Part shown: in pieces, positions 5,994 through 22,046 of the stretch | How the letters are laid out: each line of letters begins with the position of its first letter | Numbering within the stretch: position 1 is the stretch's first letter | Translations under genes and position numbers: made by a program | IMG/VR virus record: IMGVR_UViG_3300042945_000540 | Span: 1-24,022 of that record | DNA: 24,022 nt | Origin: a virus | Reading direction: 5' to 3' (one strand) | The notes under the pieces: generated by a model | The model's input: the letters and a program-made list of their open reading frames with translations, nothing else | The model's database searches: none | What the model was told of the DNA's origin: nothing

Positions 5994-6278
5994 TTAATCT
6001 CCCAACGTAAGTGTTTGCCAAGTTTCAGCCCAGGCTGCTTTGGATCTATGACGAGAAAACTCTCTAGATATTGATCCATTCTCTAGATAAACTCCACCCC
6101 AAACTCCCCATTCTTTTTGTGAAACACCAACAGCAAAGCAGTGTTTTCTTACTGGGCATTCTGAGCATAGTTTATCTATTGCAGGACGAAGGGCCTCGTC
6201 ATCTTCATACTTTTCAAAAAATAAATTTGTGTCATAGTCTAAACAGACAGCATCATCTTTCCAATCATGCTTCTTCAT
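5994..6278 (-). CDS. WhiB-family Fe-S transcription regulator
   Basis: The 94-residue protein carries the four WhiB cysteines, C12, C38, C41 and C47, as C-x25-C-x2-C-x5-C, which bind a redox-sensitive [4Fe-4S] cluster. The G-V-W-G-G motif at 58-62 follows, then a basic tail for DNA contact (SRHRSKAAW). WhiB proteins occur only in actinobacteria and their phages, so this gene is the best host indicator in the window. Known phage WhiB proteins (for example from mycobacteriophage TM4) can interfere with host WhiB control; that role here is inference. It follows the upstream gene with no gap. Confidence 0.95.
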   Translation of the reverse strand: MKKHDWKDDAVCLDYDTNLFFEKYEDDEALRPAIDKLCSECPVRKHCFAVGVSQKEWGVWGGVYLENGSISREFSRHRSKAAWAETWQTLTLGD

Positions 6279-7797: not shown

Positions 7798-8052
7798 TTA
7801 TCCTTCTATAAAAGTAATTAGTTCTTCTCTTGTTTTTGCCCCATTGATTCGTCCAACTTCTTTGTTGTCTTCAATCAATATAAAAGTTGGGATAGATCTA
7901 ACCCCAAAATCTTCAACCATTTCGGTTTCAGAATCAGCGTCAATCATAAAGAATCTGGCAGTTATTTGATCATGGTTTAACTGTTCCACTATTGGCTTTA
8001 CCTTTTCGCATGGCTTGCACCATTCAGCAGTAAAGTATAGGACATGCTTCAC
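7798..8052 (-). CDS. Thioredoxin-like protein
   Basis: The 84-residue thioredoxin-fold protein has active site W11-C12-K13-P14-C15 and the cis-proline P55 in RSIPTF. A buried Asp of the family may be represented by D38 or D40 in MIDAD. It is shorter than cellular thioredoxins (about 105 residues), as is usual for phage versions. It would reduce disulfides, for example in ribonucleotide reductase or in WhiB/Fe-S proteins; the partner is not visible here. The start is GTG, overlapping the upstream nuclease stop as GTGA. Confidence 0.92.
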   Translation of the reverse strand: MKHVLYFTAEWCKPCEKVKPIVEQLNHDQITARFFMIDADSETEMVEDFGVRSIPTFILIEDNKEVGRINGAKTREELITFIEG

Positions 8053-8456
8053 TTGCCAGACTTCTTTCTAGCCTTTAAAAGCGCATCAAAATCTTTAACC
8101 TTAGTGTCACCCATATATCCCCAAGCATATCCATCATTAATCATCTTATCATTAACAGACTCTGTATCTCCATTAATATATAGCCAACCAAGAATACGAC
8201 CATACTTTTCGGATGAGTCCATCTTTTCTGTTTTGATTACAACAGACTTAGCATCCTTAAGATGCTTCTTTAAGTATTCCTTAGACTCAAGACCAAGAGC
8301 CTTTTCTTTAAGGTCCTTAGTGCGGGACTCAGGGGTATCAATACCCGCTAACCTCACACGGGATTGAAACAAAATATCAAACCCTAAATCAATAAGAACA
8401 TCGATGGTATCTCCATCTACAACATTCTCTACTTTTCTTACATAGTATTCATACAT
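8049..8456 (-). CDS. SNase-family (thermonuclease-like) nuclease
   Basis: The 135-residue staphylococcal nuclease homologue has VVDGDTIDV (D14, D16), RLAGIDTPE (R35, D40, E43) and EKYGRILGWLY (R87). These are the calcium-binding and catalytic residues of the family, all intact. The C-terminal NDGYAWGY matches the usual end of the fold. No signal peptide is seen, so it acts in the cytoplasm, perhaps in host DNA breakdown or nucleotide recycling. The start overlaps the upstream stop as TAATG. Confidence 0.93.
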   Translation of the reverse strand: MYEYYVRKVENVVDGDTIDVLIDLGFDILFQSRVRLAGIDTPESRTKDLKEKALGLESKEYLKKHLKDAKSVVIKTEKMDSSEKYGRILGWLYINGDTESVNDKMINDGYAWGYMGDTKVKDFDALLKARKKSGK

Positions 8457-8698
8457 TAATATGACTCTCCCTTTGCTCTGTTCTCAATAAGTTTTTCTCT
8501 TTCATCTACTACACTAATCATAAAAGACATCATGCTGTTGTATCCGTCTGGGATAGCCATTATTGAATTGTAGTGGTGCCCACAAAATAATAGATCTCCA
8601 GAGATACCAGTAACTTGAACTAAGGCCTCTGCATTACACTTATCACATCTATCCTTTGGTCCAAGGACCCATTCTTGCTTTACTTCTTCTTTTAGCAT
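8456..8698 (-). CDS. Small zinc-binding protein, DUF7455-like
   Basis: The 80-residue protein has RCDKCNAEALVQV followed by LLFCGHHYNSI, a C-x2-C plus C-x-H-H zinc site like the small actinobacterial DUF7455 proteins. I choose the ATG at 8698 over the one at 8707 because the TATAAT at 8708-8713 would start the transcript at about 8701, leaving the 8707 ATG outside the mRNA. Its biological role is unknown. Confidence 0.75.
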   Translation of the reverse strand: MLKEEVKQEWVLGPKDRCDKCNAEALVQVTGISGDLLFCGHHYNSIMAIPDGYNSMMSFMISVVDEREKLIENRAKGESY

Positions 8699-8707
8699 TG
8701 TAAACAT

Positions 8708-8713
8708 ATTATA
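8708..8713 (-). promoter_or_regulatory. -10 box for a nearly leaderless start at 8698
   Basis: A perfect TATAAT on the - strand ends 9 nt before the ATG at 8698, so the expected 5' end is about 3 nt from the start codon. The -35 region has only a partial match (GCAACA at an 18-nt spacing). The box overlaps the stop region of the glycosyltransferase gene. Confidence 0.5.
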
Positions 8714-9710
8714 GCACCCTATCTTTTAGCCTGTTGCGTAACTGTATTTCAGATACGCCGTGAAAATCAAAGAAATCTTGTATGGATTTTTTTAAACCTC
8801 TCAAGTCCATGTAATAATTATACCCCTTAAGTATTAAAAGCGCAAGTTGCTTTTTTGAATTTGGTAAATCATCTTCTGTTGCACCTATATTAATTAAATG
8901 GTTTGACCATCTTGTATTTACCTTTGGATACTCGATCCCTAGATATTCTCCAATTACACCTGAATCAACATCTGATAATTCAAAGTTCTTATATTTTAAT
9001 GGTGAATTTAAAAATAAACTCCTGTCAAATATTGACTTTTTATCTTTAGCCTCTGTAACCATATAAGTTTTTGGTATTTCATAAATAGAAAATCCATTAC
9101 AGAATAGTAACAAAGATAAAAGTATATCTTCTTCTCCCCACAGGTATCCGATTGGGTATTTTAATTTCATTATTTCTTTACCAGCAAAAATAAAATGAGG
9201 CATTATCCAGTTAGACAAAAATGGATCGTAGATCTCTCTATCTTTTGAATCTATGAAGCATTTTGATGAGTGCTCAATAGGTATATGGCTTCCTGGATGC
9301 TCTGTTTCTGTAACGATAGTTTTATAAAATATATCTAAAAATCGATCCCTTAGTGGCTGACTGATTACTGCCATACTGCTTTCTGGTAATTGAGAGTGCC
9401 AAGATATTAAATCAGAGTCCCACCCTTTCTTAAACCCAGTATGGCAATCAATACTCAAAACGTAGTCTTCATCGTTATATAGTCCCTGAATAAAACTTCT
9501 GGTCCTGCCAAGTCCGTATACTATGTTACTTGGAAGTGTAATTACCCTTATTTCATTTTTTATATCTGATAGATCTATTGATGATAAACCCTGTAGAGAG
9601 ATTCCAAAAGACAGTCCGATGGGGTTATCACTTTTATCAATGCAATCTAGTATTGTATCTTTAATTCTATCATCAGACAGCGATGGAATCATTACAAAAA
9701 TTGTTGACAC
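8709..9710 (-). CDS. GT-A glycosyltransferase, Skp1 GlcNAc-transferase-like
   Basis: This 333-residue enzyme resembles the UDP-GlcNAc:polypeptide GlcNAc-transferase family (Pfam GlcNAc). The evidence is the opening FVMIPSLSDDR, then YGLGRTRSFIQGLYNDEDYVLSIDCHTGFKKGWD, in which D88-C-H90 stands in place of the classical DxD metal site, as DSH does in Skp1 GlcNAcT. YLWGEEDILL further on supplies the likely catalytic acidic residues. There is no membrane segment, so it should act in the cytoplasm on a phage or host acceptor. The start is GTG overlapping the previous stop (TAGTG). Confidence 0.8.
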   Translation of the reverse strand: MSTIFVMIPSLSDDRIKDTILDCIDKSDNPIGLSFGISLQGLSSIDLSDIKNEIRVITLPSNIVYGLGRTRSFIQGLYNDEDYVLSIDCHTGFKKGWDSDLISWHSQLPESSMAVISQPLRDRFLDIFYKTIVTETEHPGSHIPIEHSSKCFIDSKDREIYDPFLSNWIMPHFIFAGKEIMKLKYPIGYLWGEEDILLSLLLFCNGFSIYEIPKTYMVTEAKDKKSIFDRSLFLNSPLKYKNFELSDVDSGVIGEYLGIEYPKVNTRWSNHLINIGATEDDLPNSKKQLALLILKGYNYYMDLRGLKKSIQDFFDFHGVSEIQLRNRLKDRVL

Positions 9711-9898
9711 TATTTTTTCCTATTGTCCGTGGAATAAAATCCAGGACCGTTGAGGACTACTCCAAAATTAGAGTATACACGGGACAAAGGCATTAAACAA
9801 AACTCGCACTCATATCCTGGATCATCCTCTTTAATAGAACGAACTTTAATAATTGTTCCTTCACAAGAACCCATACACTCATACTCATATGCTGGCAT
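9710..9898 (-). CDS. FmdB-like zinc ribbon protein
   Basis: The 62-residue protein begins MPAYEYECMGSCEG, followed by YECEFCLMPLSRVYSN, a C-x-C and C-x2-C pairing that can bind one zinc, and ends with GPGFYSTD as FmdB-type proteins do. The cellular role of this family is poorly known. Its ATG overlaps the ferredoxin stop (TAATG), so both are translated together. Confidence 0.85.
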   Translation of the reverse strand: MPAYEYECMGSCEGTIIKVRSIKEDDPGYECEFCLMPLSRVYSNFGVVLNGPGFYSTDNRKK

Positions 9899-10203
9899 TA
9901 CTTTTCCTTTATTTCTGGGTGATCCATATCTTTATTCTTTAACTTATTTGCACCGTGCAAGTTTCCAATAGGAATAAAAAACTCTTTGTTTATTCTTTCA
10001 AACTCTTTTTTATTTTCTGGCAAATCATCTGCCCAATAAATTGCATCTGTAGGGCATGCTGGCTCGCATGCACCGCAGTCGATGCACTCTTCTGGATTAA
10101 TATAAAGCATCCGTCCGCCTTCATAGATGCAATCCACAGGGCATTCTGCAATGCAGGACCTATCCTTGACGTCAATACAAGCGTCAGTTACTACGTATGG
10201 CAC
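9898..10203 (-). CDS. fdxA: 7Fe ferredoxin, FdxA type
   Basis: The 101-residue protein is very close in pattern to actinobacterial 7Fe ferredoxins. C9, C17 and C50 would hold a [3Fe-4S] cluster, and C21, C40, C43 and C46 a [4Fe-4S] cluster. C25 is the extra family cysteine, and D11 stands where a fourth [3Fe] cysteine would be. CPVDCIYEGGRMLYI and CIDCGACEPACP are typical. The long C-terminal tail (FFIPIGNLHGANKL) also matches cellular homologues. It carries electrons, with partner unknown. The gene is probably host-derived. The start is GTG at 10203, right after the previous stop. Confidence 0.93.
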   Translation of the reverse strand: MPYVVTDACIDVKDRSCIAECPVDCIYEGGRMLYINPEECIDCGACEPACPTDAIYWADDLPENKKEFERINKEFFIPIGNLHGANKLKNKDMDHPEIKEK

Positions 10204-10542: not shown

Positions 10543-11392
10543 CATTGGAAAGTGGCTGAACTCCTTTTCTTTGGTGAACGCCAGCATCTTCGGCAGTTGG
10601 TATTTCGTCCCAAGGAATTGGTGGAAGCCCAATCTCTGCGTGTTCTTCTAGGTATAGCCTGTCAAACATATACCTTCTTTGCCAAGTATAGTTAACAAAC
10701 GAATCAGTGTCTCTAAAATGTTGACCAAACTTAAACTTACTGTTTAACTCTTCAGACCTAGTATGATCTTTGCTTTCGCTTGGAACACACCAGTGATTTT
10801 TATTAATTAAATGAAAGAAGATGGCCTGATAGTATTCATCTGGATCATTGTTTGCCCAAGATGGTCTGTAATGATAGTCAAATTGTGGCTGGCAAATGAT
10901 TGCTTGATTAGGCTTTGTTATAAAGTTTGTATTTCCAGCAACAAAACCCCAGTCTCTATTACCGCCAATGTGTAAATCTACCATATATGGACCTGGGGCA
11001 TGATCAATGTGTAGGGGTAGCCTTGGAACTCTACCCTCAGAGGTTATCTGGTGATGAGCATACATGTGATATGCAAAATGAACATCTTCCGTTCCCAATA
11101 AACCTCTTACTTTTTCTACAGCATAGTCCATAAACTTTTGTGGTATTTGGACGCCCTCTTCCCACTTATTCATTTGATGGGAAAAGTCTACTTTATTTAA
11201 ATCATAAGATGTAAGAATTTCTAAAAGTTCTTCAAACATTTCAGGAGGAAAGAACTCATCAACAAGAAAAGGTTCAAAGAATACGACATCTTTAGTTAGG
11301 ATTTCTTCAATATCTAGGTAGTCTTCCTTTGTCATATACTTCCACTCAATCTTTTCTGGATTAGGATGGTTTGCATAGATTGGAGTTATCAC
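10526..11392 (-). CDS. Large 2OG-Fe(II) oxygenase-like protein
   Basis: The 288-residue protein has an H-x-D at H128 and D130 in LPLHIDHAPG, followed by the strands YMVDLHIGG and GFVAGNTNFI. H174 and R176 in DYHYRPSW could be the distal iron ligand and the 2-oxoglutarate contact. This order matches the double-stranded beta-helix of 2OG-Fe(II) oxygenases. The flanks (WEEGVQIP, HMYAHHQITSEG and a C-terminal Trp/Arg-rich part) are not ones I recognise. GTG start overlaps the endolysin stop (TAGTG). Confidence 0.6.
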   Translation of the reverse strand: MITPIYANHPNPEKIEWKYMTKEDYLDIEEILTKDVVFFEPFLVDEFFPPEMFEELLEILTSYDLNKVDFSHQMNKWEEGVQIPQKFMDYAVEKVRGLLGTEDVHFAYHMYAHHQITSEGRVPRLPLHIDHAPGPYMVDLHIGGNRDWGFVAGNTNFITKPNQAIICQPQFDYHYRPSWANNDPDEYYQAIFFHLINKNHWCVPSESKDHTRSEELNSKFKFGQHFRDTDSFVNYTWQRRYMFDRLYLEEHAEIGLPPIPWDEIPTAEDAGVHQRKGVQPLSNVDNKG

Positions 11393-12192
11393 TACTTCGC
11401 TCCCTTTATTGCTTTGTATGTTGCAGCATCTACAATGCCATTTGGCTTAATACCCTTTGATTTCTGAAAAGCCTTAACAGCCTTATCCGTTACTGGTCCA
11501 AAATTTCCTTCTGCTGGTTTTACACCAAGTGCTACCTGAATAGCCTTTACGGAAGGTCCTTTTGCACCAATTTTAAATGACTTAAACTCTTTACTTTCAG
11601 TAGTTTTGGTAGGTTTTGCTTCTGTTTTTACTGGGGCATCTGATGATCCAACCTTAGAAAGCAATGGAAGGTTTTCTTCTCCCACATACACTGGACGACC
11701 CCAACCAACTACAGCATTAACCAACTTCTTCTTATTATTCTTTACATATCCACGAGTCTTCTCAACGCACATTCCTCCATTGCGCTGGTCTCCCTTTGCA
11801 GTTCCTGAAGTGTTTCCCTCAATAACTTGGATTGTTCCATCTCCATTATTCTTAATACAAATACCTACATGTGAAATACGATTTACACCATCTTCTGGGA
11901 AATCAAAGAAGATCCAGTCTCCAGGAGTAGGATCATCATTACGAGCATCTGCCCAACGATTATTTTTCTTAAACCAATCTGAGGCTGCTACTGTTGATGC
12001 AGACTTTGGATAACGTTTTGGGTCTAGTCCAGCAGTAAACGCTGACCAGGAAACAAATGACTGACACCATGGAAGGAAGTTTGCACCTGTCCACTTGCCA
12101 TACTTTGTTTCGTTATCTTTTGGACCTTCAATGGTTCCAATTTCTTTCTTTGCAACCTCAATGATTGCCTCTAAACTTCCTTTTATTGCCAT
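11392..12192 (-). CDS. Endolysin: CHAP domain plus peptidoglycan-binding domain
   Basis: The 266-residue lysis enzyme would cut host peptidoglycan as an amidase or endopeptidase. Residues about 8-168 are a CHAP domain with C43 in PWCQSF and H108 in RISHVGICI as the catalytic pair, and E125 in QVIEGN as the likely third residue. A Pro/Thr/Lys linker (185-203) leads to a PG_binding_1 domain (206-262, FKIGAKGPSVKAIQVALG and NGIVDAATYKAI). It has no signal peptide, so it needs a holin to reach the wall. AGGAGGAG lies upstream and a TATAAT box precedes it. Confidence 0.93.
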   Translation of the reverse strand: MAIKGSLEAIIEVAKKEIGTIEGPKDNETKYGKWTGANFLPWCQSFVSWSAFTAGLDPKRYPKSASTVAASDWFKKNNRWADARNDDPTPGDWIFFDFPEDGVNRISHVGICIKNNGDGTIQVIEGNTSGTAKGDQRNGGMCVEKTRGYVKNNKKKLVNAVVGWGRPVYVGEENLPLLSKVGSSDAPVKTEAKPTKTTESKEFKSFKIGAKGPSVKAIQVALGVKPAEGNFGPVTDKAVKAFQKSKGIKPNGIVDAATYKAIKGAK

Positions 12193-14789: not shown

Positions 14790-15566
14790 TTAGTTAGAGA
14801 GGATTGTCGCCACCTTTAAAGATGGACTGACTGAGTTAGCAGCAACAGCAGCAGTTGCTACTGAAGTTGAAAACTGAATAGAAGAACCCTGGATAAGGTT
14901 TTTAATTGTTGAAGTTTTATCTGGTGTTACAAGAGATGCAAGCATATCTACCTCACCAGACTTATATGTTTTTCCATAAATATATGAGCCAATTGAGACT
15001 ACCTCTGAAACGCATGCTGGGAAATCAATAGACTTTGATGTAGTATTTCCTGCTGCTGCATATACCTGAATACCCTTTGAGTTTAGTGAAACAACAGAAG
15101 ACTTAACTCGATCAAATCCTGTCTGTGGTGTATATGGTGCTGTGGCTGGTGGAAAACACTGACCTACCAACTTGGCAGTGGTGTTGTTAATAAACCTTGA
15201 AAAGGAAACAGCCGAAACATTGTGTGAATTACTGTTTACAAAATCAAGTGCTGAGATGAGGCCAATCAAATTAACCTCTGAAGAAGTTCCAGTCTTGCTT
15301 ACTGGGGCGCCCTGAACCAAAACTAATGTTGCTGTTGGATTTTGTTGACGAGCAACAAGAGCCATCTGAGTTCCGTGATCCATAGTAGACTTTGTTTTAT
15401 TAACACATCGATCTGATGCTACGCAAACAAACTCAACACTACCACTGATCTGAGATAAATTAAATGCATTATCAATGATTACAACTCTTTCACCAACTGC
15501 TGCTTGTGATTGAACTGGGATTACTACTGAAAATAATACTGCTACTAGTGCTACGATCTTCTTCAT
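14790..15566 (-). CDS. Secreted subtilisin-like (S8) protein
   Basis: The 258-residue protein has a signal peptide (MKKIVALVAVLFSVVIPVQSQAA, cut after AxA-like QAA). The subtilase residues follow in order: D32 in VVIIDNAF, H64 in MDHGTQMA, N174 in AAAGNTTS for the oxyanion hole, and S235 in STSVATA, matching GTSMATP with changed flanks. The domain is compact and four other cysteines may form disulfides. It would be exported to or through the host envelope. The final Pro of the serine motif is Ala, so activity is likely but not certain. AAGGAAT lies upstream of the ATG. Confidence 0.82.
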   Translation of the reverse strand: MKKIVALVAVLFSVVIPVQSQAAVGERVVIIDNAFNLSQISGSVEFVCVASDRCVNKTKSTMDHGTQMALVARQQNPTATLVLVQGAPVSKTGTSSEVNLIGLISALDFVNSNSHNVSAVSFSRFINNTTAKLVGQCFPPATAPYTPQTGFDRVKSSVVSLNSKGIQVYAAAGNTTSKSIDFPACVSEVVSIGSYIYGKTYKSGEVDMLASLVTPDKTSTIKNLIQGSSIQFSTSVATAAVAANSVSPSLKVATILSN

Positions 15567-15582
15567 TTTATTCCTTTTCTAT

Positions 15583-15786
15583 TTACGATATCATCAATCT
15601 GATGACATGACAACATGGGTCGCCACCTGCGTCCCACTCTTCTAACTCTTCTTCATCCATATATTCGTATCCACCATCATGGGTATTGCAATAAGGAGGG
15701 GTTACCCAACCTCTATCAATTCCATTTGACAGCCAGATACCAAATTCTTGCTCTTCTGGAGATAAATCTTCGTGAATGTGATCCAT
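15583..15786 (-). CDS. Small acidic protein with paired cysteines
   Basis: The 67-residue protein is strongly acidic, with EDLSPEEQEFGIWLSNGI, WVTPPYCNTHDGGY, a run of Glu and Asp, and GGDPCCHVIRL at the end. C33, the H36-D pair and C58-C59-H60 could bind a metal. The W-V-T-x-P-x-C-x-T-H-D-G segment looks conserved, and I recall similar actinobacterial proteins. The function is unknown. The ATG follows a promoter at exactly leaderless distance. Confidence 0.72.
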   Translation of the reverse strand: MDHIHEDLSPEEQEFGIWLSNGIDRGWVTPPYCNTHDGGYEYMDEEELEEWDAGGDPCCHVIRLMIS

Positions 15787-15792
15787 ATATAA

Positions 15793-15821
15793 AGTATACC
15801 CTTAAAGACTGACAACGTCAA
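15793..15821 (-). promoter_or_regulatory. Promoter with exactly leaderless spacing for 15786
   Basis: On the - strand: TTGACG (15816-15821), a 17-nt spacer, TATACT (15793-15798), then TTATAT and the ATG. +1 falls on the A of the start codon. The promoter lies in the end of the Ntn-peptidase gene. Confidence 0.85.
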
Positions 15822-16326
15822 CTGGGCCCATACAAGATGGGTTAAATTTAATTGCTGCACTTACCGCTGAAACAACACGGTTTCTAGCATTTTTTTGTTT
15901 ATCTGTTGCATACAGAACTCCAAAAGCATATTCTGCACCTGACCCCATAGCCAAATATGGAAGTGAGTATTTAGATAAAGACATATCTGCAGAACTATGT
16001 TCATAGATTTCTCCACGGACTGCGATAATCAAACCAAGATCTCCATCTTTGGATGTGTCAACCCAGAACTCATTATAAAATTCTTTAAGTTCTTTAATAA
16101 ATTTTGTTTGCATAAACTTATCTGTATCTTTAATGTTGGGAGGGGTTGGCTTAAAGTTATAACGGATTCTTTCTCCGTCCATTGCTCCTGCATATCCAAT
16201 TAGATATGGTCCTATTTTCCAAACCTTTGGAGCAGAAAGTGATAGAATAGTTCCATCATCTGAAGCACCACGGTCTCCAGCCATATAAATTTTGTCTTCA
16301 TGTTTTACTACAGCAATGCAAGTCAT
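15802..16326 (-). CDS. Proteasome/HslV-like Ntn-hydrolase peptidase
   Basis: I start this at the ATG of 16326 because it has GGAG upstream and places a Thr directly after Met; an ATG at 16368 lies before the predicted transcript. After Met removal the 173-residue chain has T1, D17 in AGDRGAS and K33 in APKVWK, exactly the catalytic set of HslV and proteasome beta subunits. GYAGAMDGERI and AMGSGAEYAFG also match. Such proteins form rings and cut peptides; no partner ATPase is visible here. It could process virion precursors or degrade host proteins (inference). Confidence 0.9.
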   Translation of the reverse strand: MTCIAVVKHEDKIYMAGDRGASDDGTILSLSAPKVWKIGPYLIGYAGAMDGERIRYNFKPTPPNIKDTDKFMQTKFIKELKEFYNEFWVDTSKDGDLGLIIAVRGEIYEHSSADMSLSKYSLPYLAMGSGAEYAFGVLYATDKQKNARNRVVSAVSAAIKFNPSCMGPVDVVSL

Positions 16327-16358
16327 GGCTAAAGCCCTCTCCAGATAGGTGATACTCA

Positions 16359-16388
16359 AGTATACCATTGCCCAGAGAGGGCTGTCAA
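16359..16388 (-). promoter_or_regulatory. Promoter of the Ntn-peptidase gene
   Basis: On the - strand: TTGACA (16383-16388), an 18-nt spacer, TATACT (16359-16364). The start near 16352 leaves a leader of about 26 nt with GGAG before the ATG at 16326. Unlike its neighbours, this gene has a normal leader. Confidence 0.82.
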
Positions 16389-16404
16389 CTATGTCTTACA
16401 ATGA

Positions 16405-16689
16405 CTAATTAGCCTTTTTGTCTACAGTCTTAAATGCTTCATTTATTTCTGCGATTGTAAGTTTTCCATCGTCCAAAAAAGCCCTAGCCAGTCTTTCTAT
16501 AACTGTGGCTACGCCTAATAGTCCTGCTAAGAATACAGCCTGCATAGTATCAATTCCTACTACTGCTCCTGCTCCCAAGACTGATAGTCCTGATGCTGCG
16601 AATACCGCTAAAATTCTCATCAAGATGTTTGTTATTGCTTTTTGTGGGTGTTCTTTCTTTGGGGGTTCTACTATTTTTTTAGTTGCCAT
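16405..16689 (-). CDS. Two-helix membrane protein, possible holin
   Basis: The 94-residue protein has a basic, Pro-containing N-terminus (KKIVEPPKKEHP), two Ala/Gly/Val-rich membrane segments (about 23-44 and 48-66), and a charged C-terminus with DDGKLTIAEINEAF. The last part resembles an EF-hand-like or helical tail seen in membrane proteins of Streptomyces and related phages (recollection). It is the last gene of the PA14-protein transcript. A holin function is possible, as for the 4100 gene, and cannot be decided from sequence. Confidence 0.65.
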   Translation of the reverse strand: MATKKIVEPPKKEHPQKAITNILMRILAVFAASGLSVLGAGAVVGIDTMQAVFLAGLLGVATVIERLARAFLDDGKLTIAEINEAFKTVDKKAN

Positions 16690-16690
16690 T

Positions 16691-16918
16691 TTATTTCTCC
16701 TTCCTTAGCGGGATTGTAATTAGCCAAATAATTGTTGTTGCCATTACAGCAATTCCAACAATATCTCTTGCTGATCCCGTCAAAGTTAGCCATGCGATAA
16801 AGAAGCCAAGGAGGGTGAATGCTTGTGCAATTAATTCCATTCCTGCATCTTTAAACCATTTGATTAATCCCTTGAGCATTTTGCCTACCAGGTTGATGGC
16901 TTTATTGATTATTTTCAT
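16691..16918 (-). CDS. Small membrane protein, 75 residues
   Basis: The protein starts with an amphipathic basic helix (MKIINKAINLVGKMLKGLIKWFKDAG), followed by two membrane segments (about 30-48 and 50-70) and a basic end, RKEK. Its ATG overlaps the PA14-protein stop (ATGA), and its AGGAGG binding site is provided by the last Arg codons of that gene. It may help place or export the neighbouring surface protein, or act in lysis; both are guesses. Confidence 0.65.
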   Translation of the reverse strand: MKIINKAINLVGKMLKGLIKWFKDAGMELIAQAFTLLGFFIAWLTLTGSARDIVGIAVMATTIIWLITIPLRKEK

Positions 16919-19002
16919 TTGTTCCTCCTTATCATTGCCCCTGCAATTTGTGATGCAATGACCACTGGGACAATTACTTCCTGCGCTTTTTCTCTCTGAT
17001 CATCTGTCATATCCATACCTAACTCAGAGAAATTAGATAGGAGTTCTGTAACATCCACTTCAAATACTGCTCCAAGTGGGTCTGCCAAGAATGCTTCTGT
17101 TTGCACTTCTGTTACTGCATCTGCTAATGTAAATGGCATTGGGGTTTCTCCTGCATCCCCTGCTCTTTCTGCGAACTCAACAAATGCTGATGCAAGTGCT
17201 GGGTTAGACTTCATCTGCTCAGCAATCTGTGCAACTTCTGATGCCTTGATACCAAGGTCTCCAGCAATCTCTGCCTTTGCTTCTTGTGTCAAAGACTTAA
17301 GGGTTTGGCTAACTGCTGCTACTTGCTCAGGTGAAAGTGTAACTAACTTGTTATCCTTGCTTGTAAGGTTAGCAATAACATTAGATAGATCTTCTTCTGT
17401 TCCCGTTCCTTTTTCAGGAATAAGTTCAGCCAACTCTTCATCTTCTATTTCAGGATTAGTTGTTGGTTCTGGTTCAGGGGTTGGCTCTTCTGTAGGTTCT
17501 GGGGTCGGTTCTTCAGTTGGTTCTACCACTGGTTCCTCTGTTGTTTCTGGATCTGGGGTTGGCTCATCAGTTGGCTCTGGCTTAGGCTCCTCTGTAGGCT
17601 CCTCTGTGGGTTCTGGAGAAGGTTCTGGGGTAGGGTCTACCGTAGGTTCAGGACTTGGCTCAGGGGTAGGCTCAACTGTTGGTTCAGGAGTAGGTTCAGG
17701 CTTTGGTTGGTTTGCTGCAGCGTTGGCTGCTGCTTGAGCGATAGCAGCATTAAGTTCTCTCTGTGCCTGCTCGTAATAGTATTCCCAAGCATCATTAATA
17801 GCATTATTTAAGTCAACGATTGATTGATTATATATTTCTATTCTGCTGTTCTTCAACTCTAAAGCATCTTCTGTATCTGCAACCGCATCCAGATGTTCTT
17901 GTGTCTTGGTTTGCAAGATCTGGTTCATTGATGATAGTGTTGCATTCTCAGAGTTATAAATACTTAGTTTGTCATTATATACTGCTAATTTATTATTATA
18001 GGCTGTTTGTGCTGTTGCCCTTGCTGCAAGTGCTTCATCATATGCATCTATCTGTGCTTGAGTTGGTCCTGATCCAGAAGAGAATGTATTCAGATTACAA
18101 CTAAAGTTTTCTCCCCATACTCGTGGATCTCCAGCATAGTCACAGCCTGCACCAGTCATTCCACCAGGAATTGTCCATCCAAGATGATAAGATCCTGGGC
18201 CTCCTCCGTTATACCACCATATCTCAACATCCAAAGTTTTGTCTTCGCTTACGTCATATGTTGGAGACCATGGGCTCCACCTTACTCCTTGCTCTACCCA
18301 TTGATTCGATACTAGATCTTCGTCAATAAACATTCTAAATCCATCATCTGTATATCCAGCAAACGATACTGTTGTGAACCATGATGGAACTGTTATCTGT
18401 CCAGTAAATTTAACTATAAAATTTTCAAATCTGTTACCGCAAACTGGAAGGCTCATATAATTTGAGTTCCAGGTGCCAGAACAAAGAACAGATCCTGGGA
18501 CTGCTTGATTGCCATTTCTTAATAGGTTATAAACCGTATATGCCAAACCTGTTCCTCCAGCAGCCTGCATATTAGACTGTGTGGTTTGAACATTTATGTT
18601 GGCTATATTAAGTGCATCCTGTGCATCATTTCTTTCTTCAAGGGCATTGTCTTTATGTTCAAGGGCCAAGGCTACTGTTGCTGTCTGGCCATCCACATTT
18701 GACTGAGCAAGGTTCTTTGCTTCTAGTGCTGTGGCTTCTGCCTCTACTGAATCATCATAAGCATCAGTGGCACTATCTCTAAGTTCCATCGCATTTTTAG
18801 CATAGGAAAACTTATTTTCTGCTATGTCTATAAGTTCTATTAAGTCATCTTGGTAGCCAAGATCGTCTACGCTATCGTTAAGTTCCTGTATTTCTTTGGC
18901 TGCAACTGTGAGTGGATCGTCAGAGTGGGCTTCCTGGGGGGCTATGAGTAGCCAGCCAAAGGCTAAAACTGTGGCTGTTACTATTCTTAGTAGTCGTTTA
19001 AT
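16915..19002 (-). CDS. Secreted PA14-domain stalk protein with AUU start
   Basis: The first ATG (18789) would lose an obvious signal peptide, so I extend the gene to an ATT at 19002 (KRLLRIVTATVLAFGWLLIAPQEAHS follows the start), with AAGGGGG 7 nt upstream. There is no ATG, GTG or TTG in that stretch; a CTG at 19020 is the only rival. The 695 residues comprise a signal peptide, alpha-helical coiled-coil stretches, a PA14-like carbohydrate-binding domain (about 150-283, with GYTDDGFRMFIDED and VEIWWYNGGG), another coiled coil, a Pro-Glu-Thr stalk (about 432-518) and a helical end. That end finishes VIVPVVIASQIAGAMIRRNK, a probable membrane anchor. It looks like a surface adhesin or host-displayed protein. 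Confidence 0.75.
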   Translation of the reverse strand: MKRLLRIVTATVLAFGWLLIAPQEAHSDDPLTVAAKEIQELNDSVDDLGYQDDLIELIDIAENKFSYAKNAMELRDSATDAYDDSVEAEATALEAKNLAQSNVDGQTATVALALEHKDNALEERNDAQDALNIANINVQTTQSNMQAAGGTGLAYTVYNLLRNGNQAVPGSVLCSGTWNSNYMSLPVCGNRFENFIVKFTGQITVPSWFTTVSFAGYTDDGFRMFIDEDLVSNQWVEQGVRWSPWSPTYDVSEDKTLDVEIWWYNGGGPGSYHLGWTIPGGMTGAGCDYAGDPRVWGENFSCNLNTFSSGSGPTQAQIDAYDEALAARATAQTAYNNKLAVYNDKLSIYNSENATLSSMNQILQTKTQEHLDAVADTEDALELKNSRIEIYNQSIVDLNNAINDAWEYYYEQAQRELNAAIAQAAANAAANQPKPEPTPEPTVEPTPEPSPEPTVDPTPEPSPEPTEEPTEEPKPEPTDEPTPDPETTEEPVVEPTEEPTPEPTEEPTPEPEPTTNPEIEDEELAELIPEKGTGTEEDLSNVIANLTSKDNKLVTLSPEQVAAVSQTLKSLTQEAKAEIAGDLGIKASEVAQIAEQMKSNPALASAFVEFAERAGDAGETPMPFTLADAVTEVQTEAFLADPLGAVFEVDVTELLSNFSELGMDMTDDQREKAQEVIVPVVIASQIAGAMIRRNK
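17455..17712 (-). repeat. Pro-Glu-Thr/Ser low-complexity repeat
   Basis: The coding sequence repeats short units such as PEPT, PEPS and EEPT for about 85 residues. The DNA is correspondingly repetitive, built from variants of the GGTTCTGG, GGTTCAGG and GGTTGGC type. The region is prone to length change by slippage and forms an extended spacer in the PA14 protein. Confidence 0.85.
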
Positions 19003-19040
19003 TCCCTTTCCCCCTTGCAGACGATATGTCTGATAGGATG

Positions 19041-19046
19041 ATTATA
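19041..19046 (-). promoter_or_regulatory. -10 box of the PA14-protein transcript
   Basis: TATAAT on the - strand follows the terminator of the previous gene. Transcription would start near 19034, 32 nt before the ATT start codon. The -35 region lies in the terminator stem and shows no match. Confidence 0.5.
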
Positions 19047-19060
19047 CCATTTTATTGCAC

Positions 19061-19093
19061 AAAAAAGGGGCTACCGTAATTGGTAACCCCTTT
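19061..19093 (-). terminator. Rho-independent terminator of the Ala-rich surface protein gene
   Basis: On the - strand, AAAGGGGTTACC and GGTAGCCCCTTT form a 12-bp stem with one T-G pair around a 6-nt loop. The 3' arm runs directly into a stretch of six T. It lies 13 nt past the stop at 19107. Confidence 0.92.
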
Positions 19094-19106
19094 AATGTTG
19101 GACTAA

Positions 19107-20246
19107 TTACTTAACTAGAGTAACCTTAGCCTTTGGATTCTTTGCATTCCACTTCTTAGCAAGTGCATTGAATGATGTCTTAATTGCCTTAAGTGCAGCA
19201 GCATTATCTGCAGTCAACTTAGCAATTGTTGCATCCTTATCAAGGATAACCTTGTCAGAAGCAGCCTTTGCATCTGCAAGTGCCTTGTCTGAAGCGACCT
19301 TTGCATCAGCAAGTGCCTTAGCAGAAGCAGCCTTCTCAGCAGCAATTAGAGCAGTGTGCTCTGCAGTTGCTCTGATTAGTGCAGCATCTGCAGCAGCCTT
19401 TGCAGCAAGCGCTGCATCCTTTGCTGCAACCTGTGCAGCAAGTTCTGATACTAGATCACGAACTGCAATCTCTGCAAATGGTGCAAGTGTTGGAGCAGTC
19501 AAACCAACTACTGCTGCTGCAACTGCATCTGATGATGTTGTTGGTGCAAAAGTAATTAGTGATCGTGTTCCTGTTGTTGGAAGAGTAGCCTTAAAGGTTG
19601 CTGTTCCAAAGTCTGTTAGAGTAGCACCAGTTGTTACTGTTGCTGTATCCATAACTGCTGTTGAAGCAAATACGGTTGCTGTAATTGACTTGCCAGATAC
19701 CTTGTTGCCAAATGCATCTGTTGCAGTTACAACGATATCCTGCTTAGTTCCTGCTGCACCTGCTGAAGGTGCTGAAACTGTTAGGTTGTTAATCTTTCCA
19801 GCAGTTCCCTGAACGTAGTATGTAAGAGTTGTTCCACCGTTGTTGATTACAACTGTTCCAATTGCTGTTGTCTTTGTGTAGACAAAAAATGTTGCAGTTG
19901 TTCCAGTGCCTGTTGCGATTGTCAAAGATGATGATCCTGACGATGCTCCGACTGGTGCTGCTGATGTGTGTAGTGCTGATACGATTGTTGCGTTAGTTGC
20001 TACTGCAGAAACTGATGTTCCTGCTGCTACTGTTGCCACAAAGCGTAGTGCATCTGCTGCATCGATTGTGTTATCTGCTGGGACTGGTAATGTAGCAGGT
20101 GTTGCGATTACACCGTTAGTAGTGTTTGCTACTGAATCTAGTGTTACTGCGACTGTCATTACTGTAGCATTTGCAGGTGCTACTGCGACCATGCCCAAAG
20201 TCATGGCTGCAACCACGGCTAGTGCGATTTTCTTAAATGAGTTCAT
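19107..20246 (-). CDS. Secreted Ala-rich surface protein with Big-like and coiled-coil parts
   Basis: The 379-residue protein begins with a clear signal peptide (KKIALAVVAAMTLGMVAVAPANA, cut after ANA). A Thr/Ala/Val-rich beta region follows, including an Ig-like (Big-type) domain around NLTVSAPSAGAAGTKQDIVV and TDAFGNKVSG. The C-terminal third is a very Ala/Lys-rich helix with 11-residue repeats, and it ends FNALAKKWNAKNPKAKVTL. This design is like S-layer or envelope proteins of planktonic actinobacteria (recollection). The gene is richer in GC than its neighbours because of its Ala content. It could be a captured host gene or a host-mimicking surface protein. AAAAGGAAT precedes the ATG. 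Confidence 0.75.
   Translation of the reverse strand: MNSFKKIALAVVAAMTLGMVAVAPANATVMTVAVTLDSVANTTNGVIATPATLPVPADNTIDAADALRFVATVAAGTSVSAVATNATIVSALHTSAAPVGASSGSSSLTIATGTGTTATFFVYTKTTAIGTVVINNGGTTLTYYVQGTAGKINNLTVSAPSAGAAGTKQDIVVTATDAFGNKVSGKSITATVFASTAVMDTATVTTGATLTDFGTATFKATLPTTGTRSLITFAPTTSSDAVAAAVVGLTAPTLAPFAEIAVRDLVSELAAQVAAKDAALAAKAAADAALIRATAEHTALIAAEKAASAKALADAKVASDKALADAKAASDKVILDKDATIAKLTADNAAALKAIKTSFNALAKKWNAKNPKAKVTLVK
19251..19349 (-). repeat. 33-bp tandem repeat encoding 11-residue helical units
   Basis: Three successive 33-nt units (19251-19283, 19284-19316, 19317-19349) code for A-S-x-K-A-L-A-D-A-K-x type repeats. The first two differ at 4 positions; the third is more diverged. 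Eleven-residue periodicity is typical of a right-handed coiled coil. Confidence 0.8.
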
Positions 20247-20264: not shown

Positions 20265-22046
20265 TTATAGTAGATTTAGTCTATCCAAATAATCTTTTAC
20301 ATCGTTTGGCATAGGTTTATATTGTATCACATTGTCTTCAGGCCTGTCAACTTGCTTAGGTCGATCACTAATTGTGTGAATATCAACTTCAAGGTTAAGG
20401 TCTCTTGGGGTATGTGATATTGCCCCAAATATTGCTCCACACACAGCATCAGCCAAGTCCTTTGACTTTTTGCGGGGGTGGTCAACTCTATCATTTTTCA
20501 TGATCTTTAGTTGTGTTAGTTCGTCGAACAGAAGTTCGATGGCTGGCATAAGAAGTCTTTCTTCATACACTAACATTGCCATATCCTCATAATGTTTTTT
20601 AGCAACAGAAACAGTATCAGTTCTCATTCCTACTTGCTTCAATTCATTTTGAATATCAAAAGATTGCCAACGGTCAAACGAAACCATTCCAATATTAAAT
20701 CCTAGTCTACGAAGATTTTGGATCCACTGTTTTACTTCTGAAAGATTGACTGGGCCCTCAACCTTTGGCTCCCACCAAGCAACAGCATCTACTATTACTA
20801 TGGGTGCAACCTGCTCGTAGTCTTTGATTACTTGAACATTAACCCATTTGTCAACATGGGCAATAGCAACTGCACACTTGTCATGCTTTTGTGCAAGGTC
20901 GGCGTGGACATAGTATATCTTGTTTGGATCTGGCTTAAAGTTTTCGTCAAACCTTTTAAAGGTATCGATAGGGTTTCTTGACACCATACAGTTTCTTACT
21001 TTTTCAATCTGCTTAAAAAATGCATCAGATGCAAACGTAGGGACACATGCAAAACGCTGCATAGCATCTCCTAGATCAGTCATAAAGGCAATCTTAAAAT
21101 CATCAATCTTTCTTGTAGGATTTACTTCCCACGTAGGTCTTTTTAATGCGAATACTCCTGGGTATTTATATGAGATTATATGATCTTCATCCCACGAAAT
21201 TTCAAAAGTATTGTCTGCTGCATCATCTGGCAGTAAAGGATTAATAACAAACTTGTGAGTCTTTTCTACAGCCTCTTTTTCAGCAATGACCGCATCATAT
21301 CTTTCTGAAATAAAGTCACCTGGATATCTTGGGAATGAAAGCAGTGCAACCTTACCAAGGTCAGGGAAACGAGAGTCTACAGATGCACGGAAAGCCTTGT
21401 AGATATTCTCCGCAGTCTTTCCCTGATCATTACCACTTCCAATTTCAGATGCAAAACCAGAAATCTCATCAAGAACTGCAAGAATAAGGTTCAAACCTTC
21501 GTGGGATTCTCTTTCTGAGTGACCAGAATAAACTGTGATTGATTTATCAAACTCTATAGAGTCAGCCTTTGCATAAAACTTTCCAGCAAACCAGGGAGAG
21601 TTTTCGATCTTAGTCTTAAATCCTTTAAAGAAAACATTCTTTGCCTGTTGAGCGTTAATAGCAACGTTAATAAGGTCGATAGCATCTCCGCCAGGTTTTC
21701 CAAAGTATCTTGCAGGTTCTTTTAGGCACAGTAGTTTGTATACTATGTATGAGCAGGCTACGGTTGATGTGAAGTCTTTTCCAGATCCCTTGCCAAGTTG
21801 CAAAATGATTTCATTTTTAGTATATTTTTCATAATATCTGGCACCTTCTTCAGCACCCAAAAGATCTATAAGGTCTTCTTTACGATATATCTGGCTCATT
21901 GCTTCAACAATATCGTATTGAATATCAGATAGTCCAGGCTGATTTAGATATTGCTCACCCTCAACAAACGTCTTTGCGTCTACTGGTGTTTCTGCAAAGT
22001 GATTATCTTTAAGTGCTTCAAAGAAATCATTAAACTCCGTGGACAA
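20265..22046 (-). CDS. Terminase large subunit
   Basis: The 593-residue packaging motor has an ATPase part with Walker A GKGSGK (85-90) and Walker B LILAVLDE (187-194, D193/E194). The RNase H-like nuclease part has D383 in YVHADLA, D458 in MVSFDRW, and D530 and D533 in KSKDLADA. Full length and motifs are intact. It cuts phage concatemers and drives DNA into the prohead. The start is TTG, lying within the last codons of the probable small subunit and preceded by GAGG; no ATG is available near this position. Confidence 0.96.
   Translation of the reverse strand: MSTEFNDFFEALKDNHFAETPVDAKTFVEGEQYLNQPGLSDIQYDIVEAMSQIYRKEDLIDLLGAEEGARYYEKYTKNEIILQLGKGSGKDFTSTVACSYIVYKLLCLKEPARYFGKPGGDAIDLINVAINAQQAKNVFFKGFKTKIENSPWFAGKFYAKADSIEFDKSITVYSGHSERESHEGLNLILAVLDEISGFASEIGSGNDQGKTAENIYKAFRASVDSRFPDLGKVALLSFPRYPGDFISERYDAVIAEKEAVEKTHKFVINPLLPDDAADNTFEISWDEDHIISYKYPGVFALKRPTWEVNPTRKIDDFKIAFMTDLGDAMQRFACVPTFASDAFFKQIEKVRNCMVSRNPIDTFKRFDENFKPDPNKIYYVHADLAQKHDKCAVAIAHVDKWVNVQVIKDYEQVAPIVIVDAVAWWEPKVEGPVNLSEVKQWIQNLRRLGFNIGMVSFDRWQSFDIQNELKQVGMRTDTVSVAKKHYEDMAMLVYEERLLMPAIELLFDELTQLKIMKNDRVDHPRKKSKDLADAVCGAIFGAISHTPRDLNLEVDIHTISDRPKQVDRPEDNVIQYKPMPNDVKDYLDRLNLL
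20321..20350 (-). promoter_or_regulatory. Candidate promoter inside the terminase 3' end
   Basis: On the - strand: TTGACA (20345-20350), an 18-nt spacer, TACAAT (20321-20326). The start near 20314 would give a leader of about 68 nt for the Ala-rich surface protein. The box lies in coding sequence, so chance is possible, but the -35 hexamer is perfect. Confidence 0.5.

Follow-up and report, generated by a model that had tools for sequence, protein, structure and literature searches.

What do the genes behind the terminase gene of an uncultured phage do at the surface of its host? The question is raised by a 24,022-nucleotide stretch of viral DNA (IMG/VR record IMGVR_UViG_3300042945_000540, positions 1 to 24,022; hereafter the window), which is mostly a minus-strand phage region and in which three tRNAs were found. 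A preliminary description had placed at 14790-20246 an island of three proteins with signal peptides (an Ala-rich protein, a PA14 protein and a subtilisin-like protein), two membrane proteins and an Ntn peptidase, and all of these are present on the minus strand. It located the island next to the terminase gene correctly, but it missed the lysis context, namely that one membrane protein is holin-like and that a CHAP endolysin gene follows, or stands just before, the Ntn gene; it also omitted a small gene, orf67, and in the window the endolysin gene falls outside 14790-20246. We favour, with somewhat less than an even chance, the reading that the locus is a late envelope/lysis cassette of actinophages whose exported protease digests the host surface when the cell lyses. 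The preliminary description had thought of blocking other phages, changing cell adhesion or processing envelope proteins; the activity that the comparative data single out is exported proteolysis.

The cassette has the order terL, Ala protein, large surface protein, tm75, hol94, Ntn peptidase, orf67 and protease, and this order recurs in IMG/VR contigs. In the window, the anchor gene upstream of the cassette is terL (20265..22046), which encodes the large terminase subunit and matches PHROG terminase families. It is followed on the minus strand by the genes for the Ala protein (19107..20246), the surface protein (16915..19002), tm75 (16691..16918), which is a small membrane protein with two hydrophobic segments whose start overlaps the surface-protein stop, hol94 (16405..16689), which is a holin-like protein with two transmembrane segments, the Ntn peptidase (15802..16326), orf67 (15583-15786), a small acidic protein of unknown function and conserved position, and the protease (14790..15566). 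Relatives were collected from IMG/VR by a terL scan, from which the best 80 of at least 600 matches were taken (82-89% identical), and further loci, each designated by L and a number, were added by two Ntn scans and a second terL scan, again with the best 80 taken each time. The sample therefore leans toward near relatives, and many of the records are fragments. Conservation was counted with one locus per contig, on 81 contigs spanning terL to Ntn. Between these two genes, the Ala, surface-protein and tm75 genes were each found in 81/81 contigs and hol94 in 67/81, so that the order is conserved in related contigs, which is not a matter of chance, and the genes are not scattered among them.

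Export of the three proteins, as the preliminary description had supposed, is also predicted by the relatives, since signal-peptide-like N termini occur in all or nearly all members of the families. A crude signal-peptide rule was positive for 101/101 subtilisin-like, 116/123 Ala-family and 54/54 surface proteins and for none of the controls (0/130 TerL and 0/95 Ntn). The rule also marked 25 of 40 tm75 membrane proteins, and thus cannot tell signal peptides from transmembrane helices. The gene order, export signals, catalytic residues, replacement of folds, linkage to holin-like and endolysin genes and non-AUG start discussed here are all read from the sequences.

The protease gene occupies a hypervariable slot. 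In the window it encodes a subtilisin-like protein with a signal peptide and the residues Asp32, His64, Asn174 and Ser235. Its model has a pLDDT (predicted local distance difference test) of 84.8, and its best Foldseek matches among solved structures are subtilisins, with a template-modelling (TM) score of ~0.58; sedolisins and PatA/PagA-type proteases stand lower in the list. The Asp/His/Asn/Ser catalytic residues are kept in all 100 complete unique subtilisin-like proteins, and the relatives L035 and L113 match Pfam S8 (PF00082) above the cut-off. The window protein and its relatives are thus probable members of the Peptidase S8 family, and proteolysis is their predicted activity. Among known phage proteins, the subtilases of phrog_3677 and of the Bacillus phages Goe17/25/27 share the S8 catalytic domain, matched by L113, but the Goe17/25/27 proteins are only 24-25% identical to L113 when compared by sequence alone; the window protein had no match in phage records.

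The fold in this slot is not constant. A scripted survey covered the contigs that have three or more genes after Ntn, 157 in number, of which 109 are distinct; a subtilisin-like gene was found in 98 of the 109. The other eleven distinct loci comprise trypsin-type genes in L127, L242 and L173, HExxH proteins in L064 and L130 (type MP1) and L105 (type MP2), the N-terminal fragment only of such a protein in L108, and L093, L151, L197 and L244, in which no protease was found within the next five genes; the L244 contig has a trypsin-type gene elsewhere. In a divergent clade, L265 has a trypsin-type protein and L261 an MP2-type protein with the motif HEFGHSIGLPH. Pfam Trypsin was matched above the cut-off by L144, L173, L242, L265 and L253, with the triads read by eye. 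MP1 and MP2 had no match above the cut-off in Pfam, NCBIfam or PDB (the best was M66 for L261, 20.2 vs 20.6 bits), so their assignment as metalloproteases is at the level of motifs only. The crude signal rule was positive for the two S1 (trypsin-type) proteins scored and for L130, as it was for the subtilisin-like proteins. In searches of whole records, 9/9 records with S8 lacked S1, 5/5 with S1 lacked S8 and 5/5 with HExxH lacked both. Replacement of the fold at a fixed gene position, together with one class per record tested, suggests that selection acts on the biochemical activity as such, probably on the outer side of the cell membrane.

The slot also diverges rapidly. With one locus per contig, median pairwise identity was 39.9% for the protease, 57.7% for PA14-type surface proteins, 77.6% for the Ala protein, 86.7% for TerL and 87.9% for Ntn. 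Among 2026 pairs with Ntn at least 95% identical, the proteases were less than 50% identical in 710 (35%). We propose that the proteases diversify and are exchanged for unrelated folds because surface proteins differ between hosts.

Some single proteins of the slot deserve mention. The otherwise unlike HExxH proteins of L064 (10614-11789) and L110 (7749-9287) have in common a 74-residue N-terminal module that is 70% identical, behind which one catalytic part has apparently been exchanged for another. The trypsin-type proteins of L253 (586-1722), L242 (2129-3202), L173 (6391-7620) and L265 (14745-15911) bear a similar short terminal Cys motif, C-x-K...CPxGY/W, which is possibly a surface-binding tail. 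In L197 (6227-6940) and L202 (7275-7988) the slot is occupied by a 237-residue protein whose start is signal-like and which has no known domain.

The genes around the slot suggest a link to lysis. The match of hol94 to the holin family phrog_443 is weak (E 0.007); its homologue (48% identical) in DSL-LC01, a metagenome-assembled Actinomycetia phage from Dishui Lake, matches the same family at 1.5e-5 and is adjoined by a lipoprotein and a second membrane protein. The best PHROG match of both proteins is phrog_26427, labelled nuclease; for the two-transmembrane, holin-like protein of the window this label looks wrong. In the window, an endolysin with CHAP and PG_binding_1 domains, both above the Pfam cut-off, is encoded at 11392..12192. 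Of 79 distinct loci with 4 kb or more of sequence, 69 have a CHAP endolysin gene within 4.2 kb behind the protease (median distance 775 bases). The endolysin gene stands directly before Ntn in L258, L261, L265, L278, L280, L050 and L074, and with one gene between in L078; it is preceded by a membrane protein of another kind in L258, L261, L050, L074 and L078, and a small lipoprotein is found there too in L258, L263 and L280. Because the CHAP endolysin gene usually follows or just precedes Ntn, the cassette looks like a late envelope/lysis cassette.

Phage lysis cassettes comprise holin, endolysin and spanin, with LysB in mycobacteriophages. The cassette described here resembles them in its holin-like protein, its CHAP/PG-binding endolysin and, in L258, L263, L280 and DSL-LC01, a small lipoprotein. 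It differs in having, in addition, two large exported proteins and a protease whose fold varies. Neither a spanin nor LysB was identified, although no dedicated model was used to search for either. These features suggest the following course of events. Late in infection, the host would produce and export the Ala protein and the large surface protein, and the latter, with tm75 as its partner, would stay attached through its hydrophobic C terminus. The membrane would be opened by the holin-like protein and the peptidoglycan by the CHAP endolysin, and the exported subtilisin-, trypsin- or metalloprotease-type enzyme would cut host surface proteins (S-layer-like or wall-bound), with the digestion of these proteins leading to cell opening and release of progeny. 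We infer the timing, the substrate and the need for proteolysis in lysis.

Several findings weigh against this. Pfam S8 gave no match for the window protein and six other subtilisin-like members tested. The crude signal rule was negative for the HExxH protein of L064 (0/1) and for MP2 (0/3), which have a hydrophobic N terminus only. No protease was found in L093, L151, L197 and the near-copy L202, all of them fragments (L093 was not searched as a whole for S1, and L202 not searched as a whole), so the protease is not absolutely required. The hol94 gene is absent from 14 of the 81 contigs; a different membrane protein is present in three of these, L050, L074 and L078. Of the 79 loci scored for a CHAP gene, 10 show none, and one to four other genes often separate protease and endolysin. 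Neither S8 nor S1 was matched in two phages of the Stanwilliamsviridae or in DSL-LC01, which encodes a holin-like protein and a surface protein of related kind.

The main rival fits the data nearly as well. The exported protease may strip a protein receptor from the infected cell and its debris, with the Ala and surface proteins coating the cell, so that neither progeny nor rival phages re-adsorb. Interchangeable folds and fast divergence of the slot suit variable receptors, and the conserved anchor of the surface proteins carries heads of binding type (PA14, Fn3-like and others). Against such receptor destruction, the protease is placed beside the holin-like gene and the endolysin, and a subtilisin occurs with both common surface types (48 PA14 and 16 BIG6 contigs), hence without any pairing of protease and head; neither point is decisive. 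On balance we think that receptor destruction, or superinfection exclusion, is rather less likely to be the function than proteolysis at lysis. A role in lysis would make the protease an additional kind of lysis effector and would lead one to expect a barrier of protein at the surface of the hosts; receptor destruction would provide a means of superinfection exclusion.

Since the genes are neighbours and are conserved together, the protease might also cleave the Ala protein or the surface protein for release or activation. We regard such self-processing as improbable, as PA14-type surface proteins occur with unrelated proteases (HExxH in L064, trypsin type in L127) and no correlated change was seen in a simple type-by-type count.

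It is more improbable still that ordinary virion or tail proteins have been wrongly read as exported. In favour of this reading, virion proteins often contain Ig-like and PA14 domains, and phage Big-1 proteins are among the Foldseek matches of the Ala model. The alignment and model of the Ala protein give a signal-peptide-like N terminus, Ig-like beta domains, a helix of ~105 residues and a conserved basic C terminus; the model (pLDDT 77.7, predicted TM score 0.57) has strands at 31-263 and the helix at 265-369. Foldseek returned generic Ig-like matches only, with complement C3 domains at the top (TM score 0.26), InvE at rank 20 and invasin at rank 49, and the top match in a viral library was a phage Big-1 protein (TM score 0.24). 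What speaks against virion proteins is the signal-peptide-like N termini throughout the three families, together with the protease, the hydrophobic C terminus and the tm75 partner. Slightly less probable again is a host-benefit or nutrient role, in which debris or the proteins of predators would be broken down by secreted proteases. Scavenging is a usual task of proteases that are exported, but the fixed position by the lysis genes in the late region, the one protease of these classes per record tested and the lack of an obvious gain for a lytic phage argue against it.

The surface protein has an unusual start. It is a 695-residue protein with a PA14-type head (a weak Pfam match under the cut-off), coiled coils, a Pro/Glu-rich stalk and a conserved C-terminal domain with a hydrophobic end. 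The signal peptide that the preliminary description gave to it is absent from the frame opened by the table-11 start (ATG at 18789; 16915-18789) and clear only when the frame is read from its true start, ATT at 19002-19000. Among relatives the heads differ (PA14, an Fn3-like domain and others), and the leader and the C-terminal domain are common to them.

The avoidance of AUG is general among these genes. The 54 distinct starts found were ATT in 42, ATA in 8 and ATC in 4, with no others; in the divergent clade a start was found in 4/6 loci, all ATT, and none in L263 and L265. The search pattern allowed any first codon followed by K-(K/R/S)-L, a signal-like stretch and a Shine-Dalgarno match, with hits in tm75 genes excluded; it would miss surface genes with a different N terminus. 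A stop codon immediately precedes the start in 15/54. By contrast, the starts found by pattern were ATG in 88 of 94 Ala genes (the others being 2 GTG, 2 CTA, 1 ATT and 1 AAA), in 66 of 67 S8 protease genes (1 ATT), in 28 of 32 Ntn genes (4 GTG) and in all 49 hol94 genes.

The region upstream of this start is conserved as well, all of its elements lying on the minus strand. The Shine-Dalgarno sequence AAGGGGGAA stands upstream of the ATT start at 19008..19016, and its core ends 7-8 nt upstream of the start in 52 of the 54 distinct starts and 11 nt upstream in the other two. Next to it, a 5' leader hairpin (CAGAC-ATATC-GTCTG) lies at 19018..19032. A hairpin with a stem of at least 5 pairs occurs in 40/42 distinct leaders vs a mean of 5.4 and a maximum of 11 in shuffles, with compensatory changes in the arms; single folds of the leader are weak (z -0.55 to -1.93). 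L074 and L080 have no hairpin and retain ATT. Alternatively, the hairpin may be a palindromic DNA operator. An extended -10 promoter element, TGGTATAAT, lies at 19041..19049, and TG-N precedes TATA(A/C)T in 52 of the 53 leaders that have a -10. Between the Ala and surface-protein genes an intrinsic terminator is found at 19061..19090, and terminators like it occur in 43/54 distinct upstream regions vs 0.05 expected in shuffles under a relaxed rule; a strict script that allows no G-U pair found 0/53, and a standard scan also missed the window terminator. The leader pattern AGACAT...AAGGGGGAA occurs once in 4/6 large records and is absent from the other two. The promoter-plus-leader pattern occurs once each in 7/9 records, and the record of L235 has one extra match that lacks the hairpin arms.

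The non-AUG start of infC is under the control of IF3. In Streptomyces, a GTC start codon of sigR is repressed by IF3, according to PMC5472188. The surface gene resembles sigR in having a non-canonical start at which an actinobacterial translation system may exert control. It differs in being a phage gene with AUU, AUA or AUC. The conserved AUU/AUA/AUC start offers a natural case in which to ask why a gene does without AUG. We consider it possible, though less likely than not, that exported proteolysis is a distinct lysis function in phages of protein-coated actinobacteria, with a fold-independent, rapidly exchanged slot, and that it is coupled to a surface protein for which an obligatory AUH start fixes the amount made. 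If this is true, the protease slot does for a proteinaceous surface what the endolysin does for peptidoglycan.

A comparison with DSL-LC01 suggests that the surface protein and tm75 act together. This uncultured lake phage, for which an Actinomycetia host is predicted (PMC10611076), encodes a 944-residue protein with an Fn3-like domain 48% identical to that of the cassette proteins. The suggestion is made because the terminal segment of this protein resembles tm75 (E 7e-5 when compared singly; E 0.001 as the sole match among the 303 frames of the locus). In DSL-LC01, however, the surface protein lies elsewhere in the genome, the transmembrane part is present as a probable fusion and the annotated start is ATG.

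The nearest isolates by TerL are the Streptomyces phages Wofford and Francob, 54-55% identical. The window also contains a whiB-like gene at 5994-6278 (Pfam PF02467), and whiB is cited as a key indicator of actinophages in a passage of PMC10202952. The WhiB gene and the TerL identity together indicate that the window derives from an actinophage. The cassette-bearing phages form a large group whose hosts are probably actinobacteria. We presume that the host of the window phage is one too, and propose from the low G+C content that its order is Nanopelagicales. The TerL of the Stanwilliamsviridae, a family named only in the record of Wofford, is thus related, but the gene order behind terL is not shared in the two phages, which were compared by annotation. 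In the 10 kb behind their terL, no holin, endolysin or protease is annotated; HNH and tRNA genes are found there and, in Wofford only, a gene annotated as tail fiber.

The view that the combination is not a described system was upheld. PADLOC found no known defence protein among seven proteins, and literature listings on the topic, which cover few subscription papers and no bioRxiv preprints, contained no description of the cassette. The word 'protease' is absent from the main text of PMC6802176 and PMC12143481 and occurs once in PMC12596118, in a reference title. The passages of PMC11039613 on phages and Nanopelagicales, in which the word itself was not searched for, hold nothing on the matter, and the first Nanopelagicales phages, as described in PMC10202952, have 39 kb and belong to a different family. 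Scans of genome contigs for host homologues confirmed by alignment 0/245 pattern matches for the Ala protein and 0/185 for the surface-protein C terminus; these scans are of low sensitivity because only two short peptide patterns were usable in each.

The Ntn peptidase is HslV/proteasome-beta-like, with Thr behind Met1, no signal peptide and a conserved start MTC at 16326. It matches the HslV family phrog_1040 (E 5e-24) and falls slightly below the cut-off of Pfam Proteasome. A linkage of Ntn to lysis genes elsewhere was considered and dropped, as the annotations of four other phages show no lysis gene less than 4 kb from Ntn, most genes there being hypothetical. In L076, a DUF885 protein (15600-17297; E 2e-116) replaces the Ntn peptidase between hol94 and orf67. 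Apart from the cassette, small genes for thioredoxin, staphylococcal-nuclease-like and ferredoxin-like proteins form a close cluster at 7798-10203 of the window.

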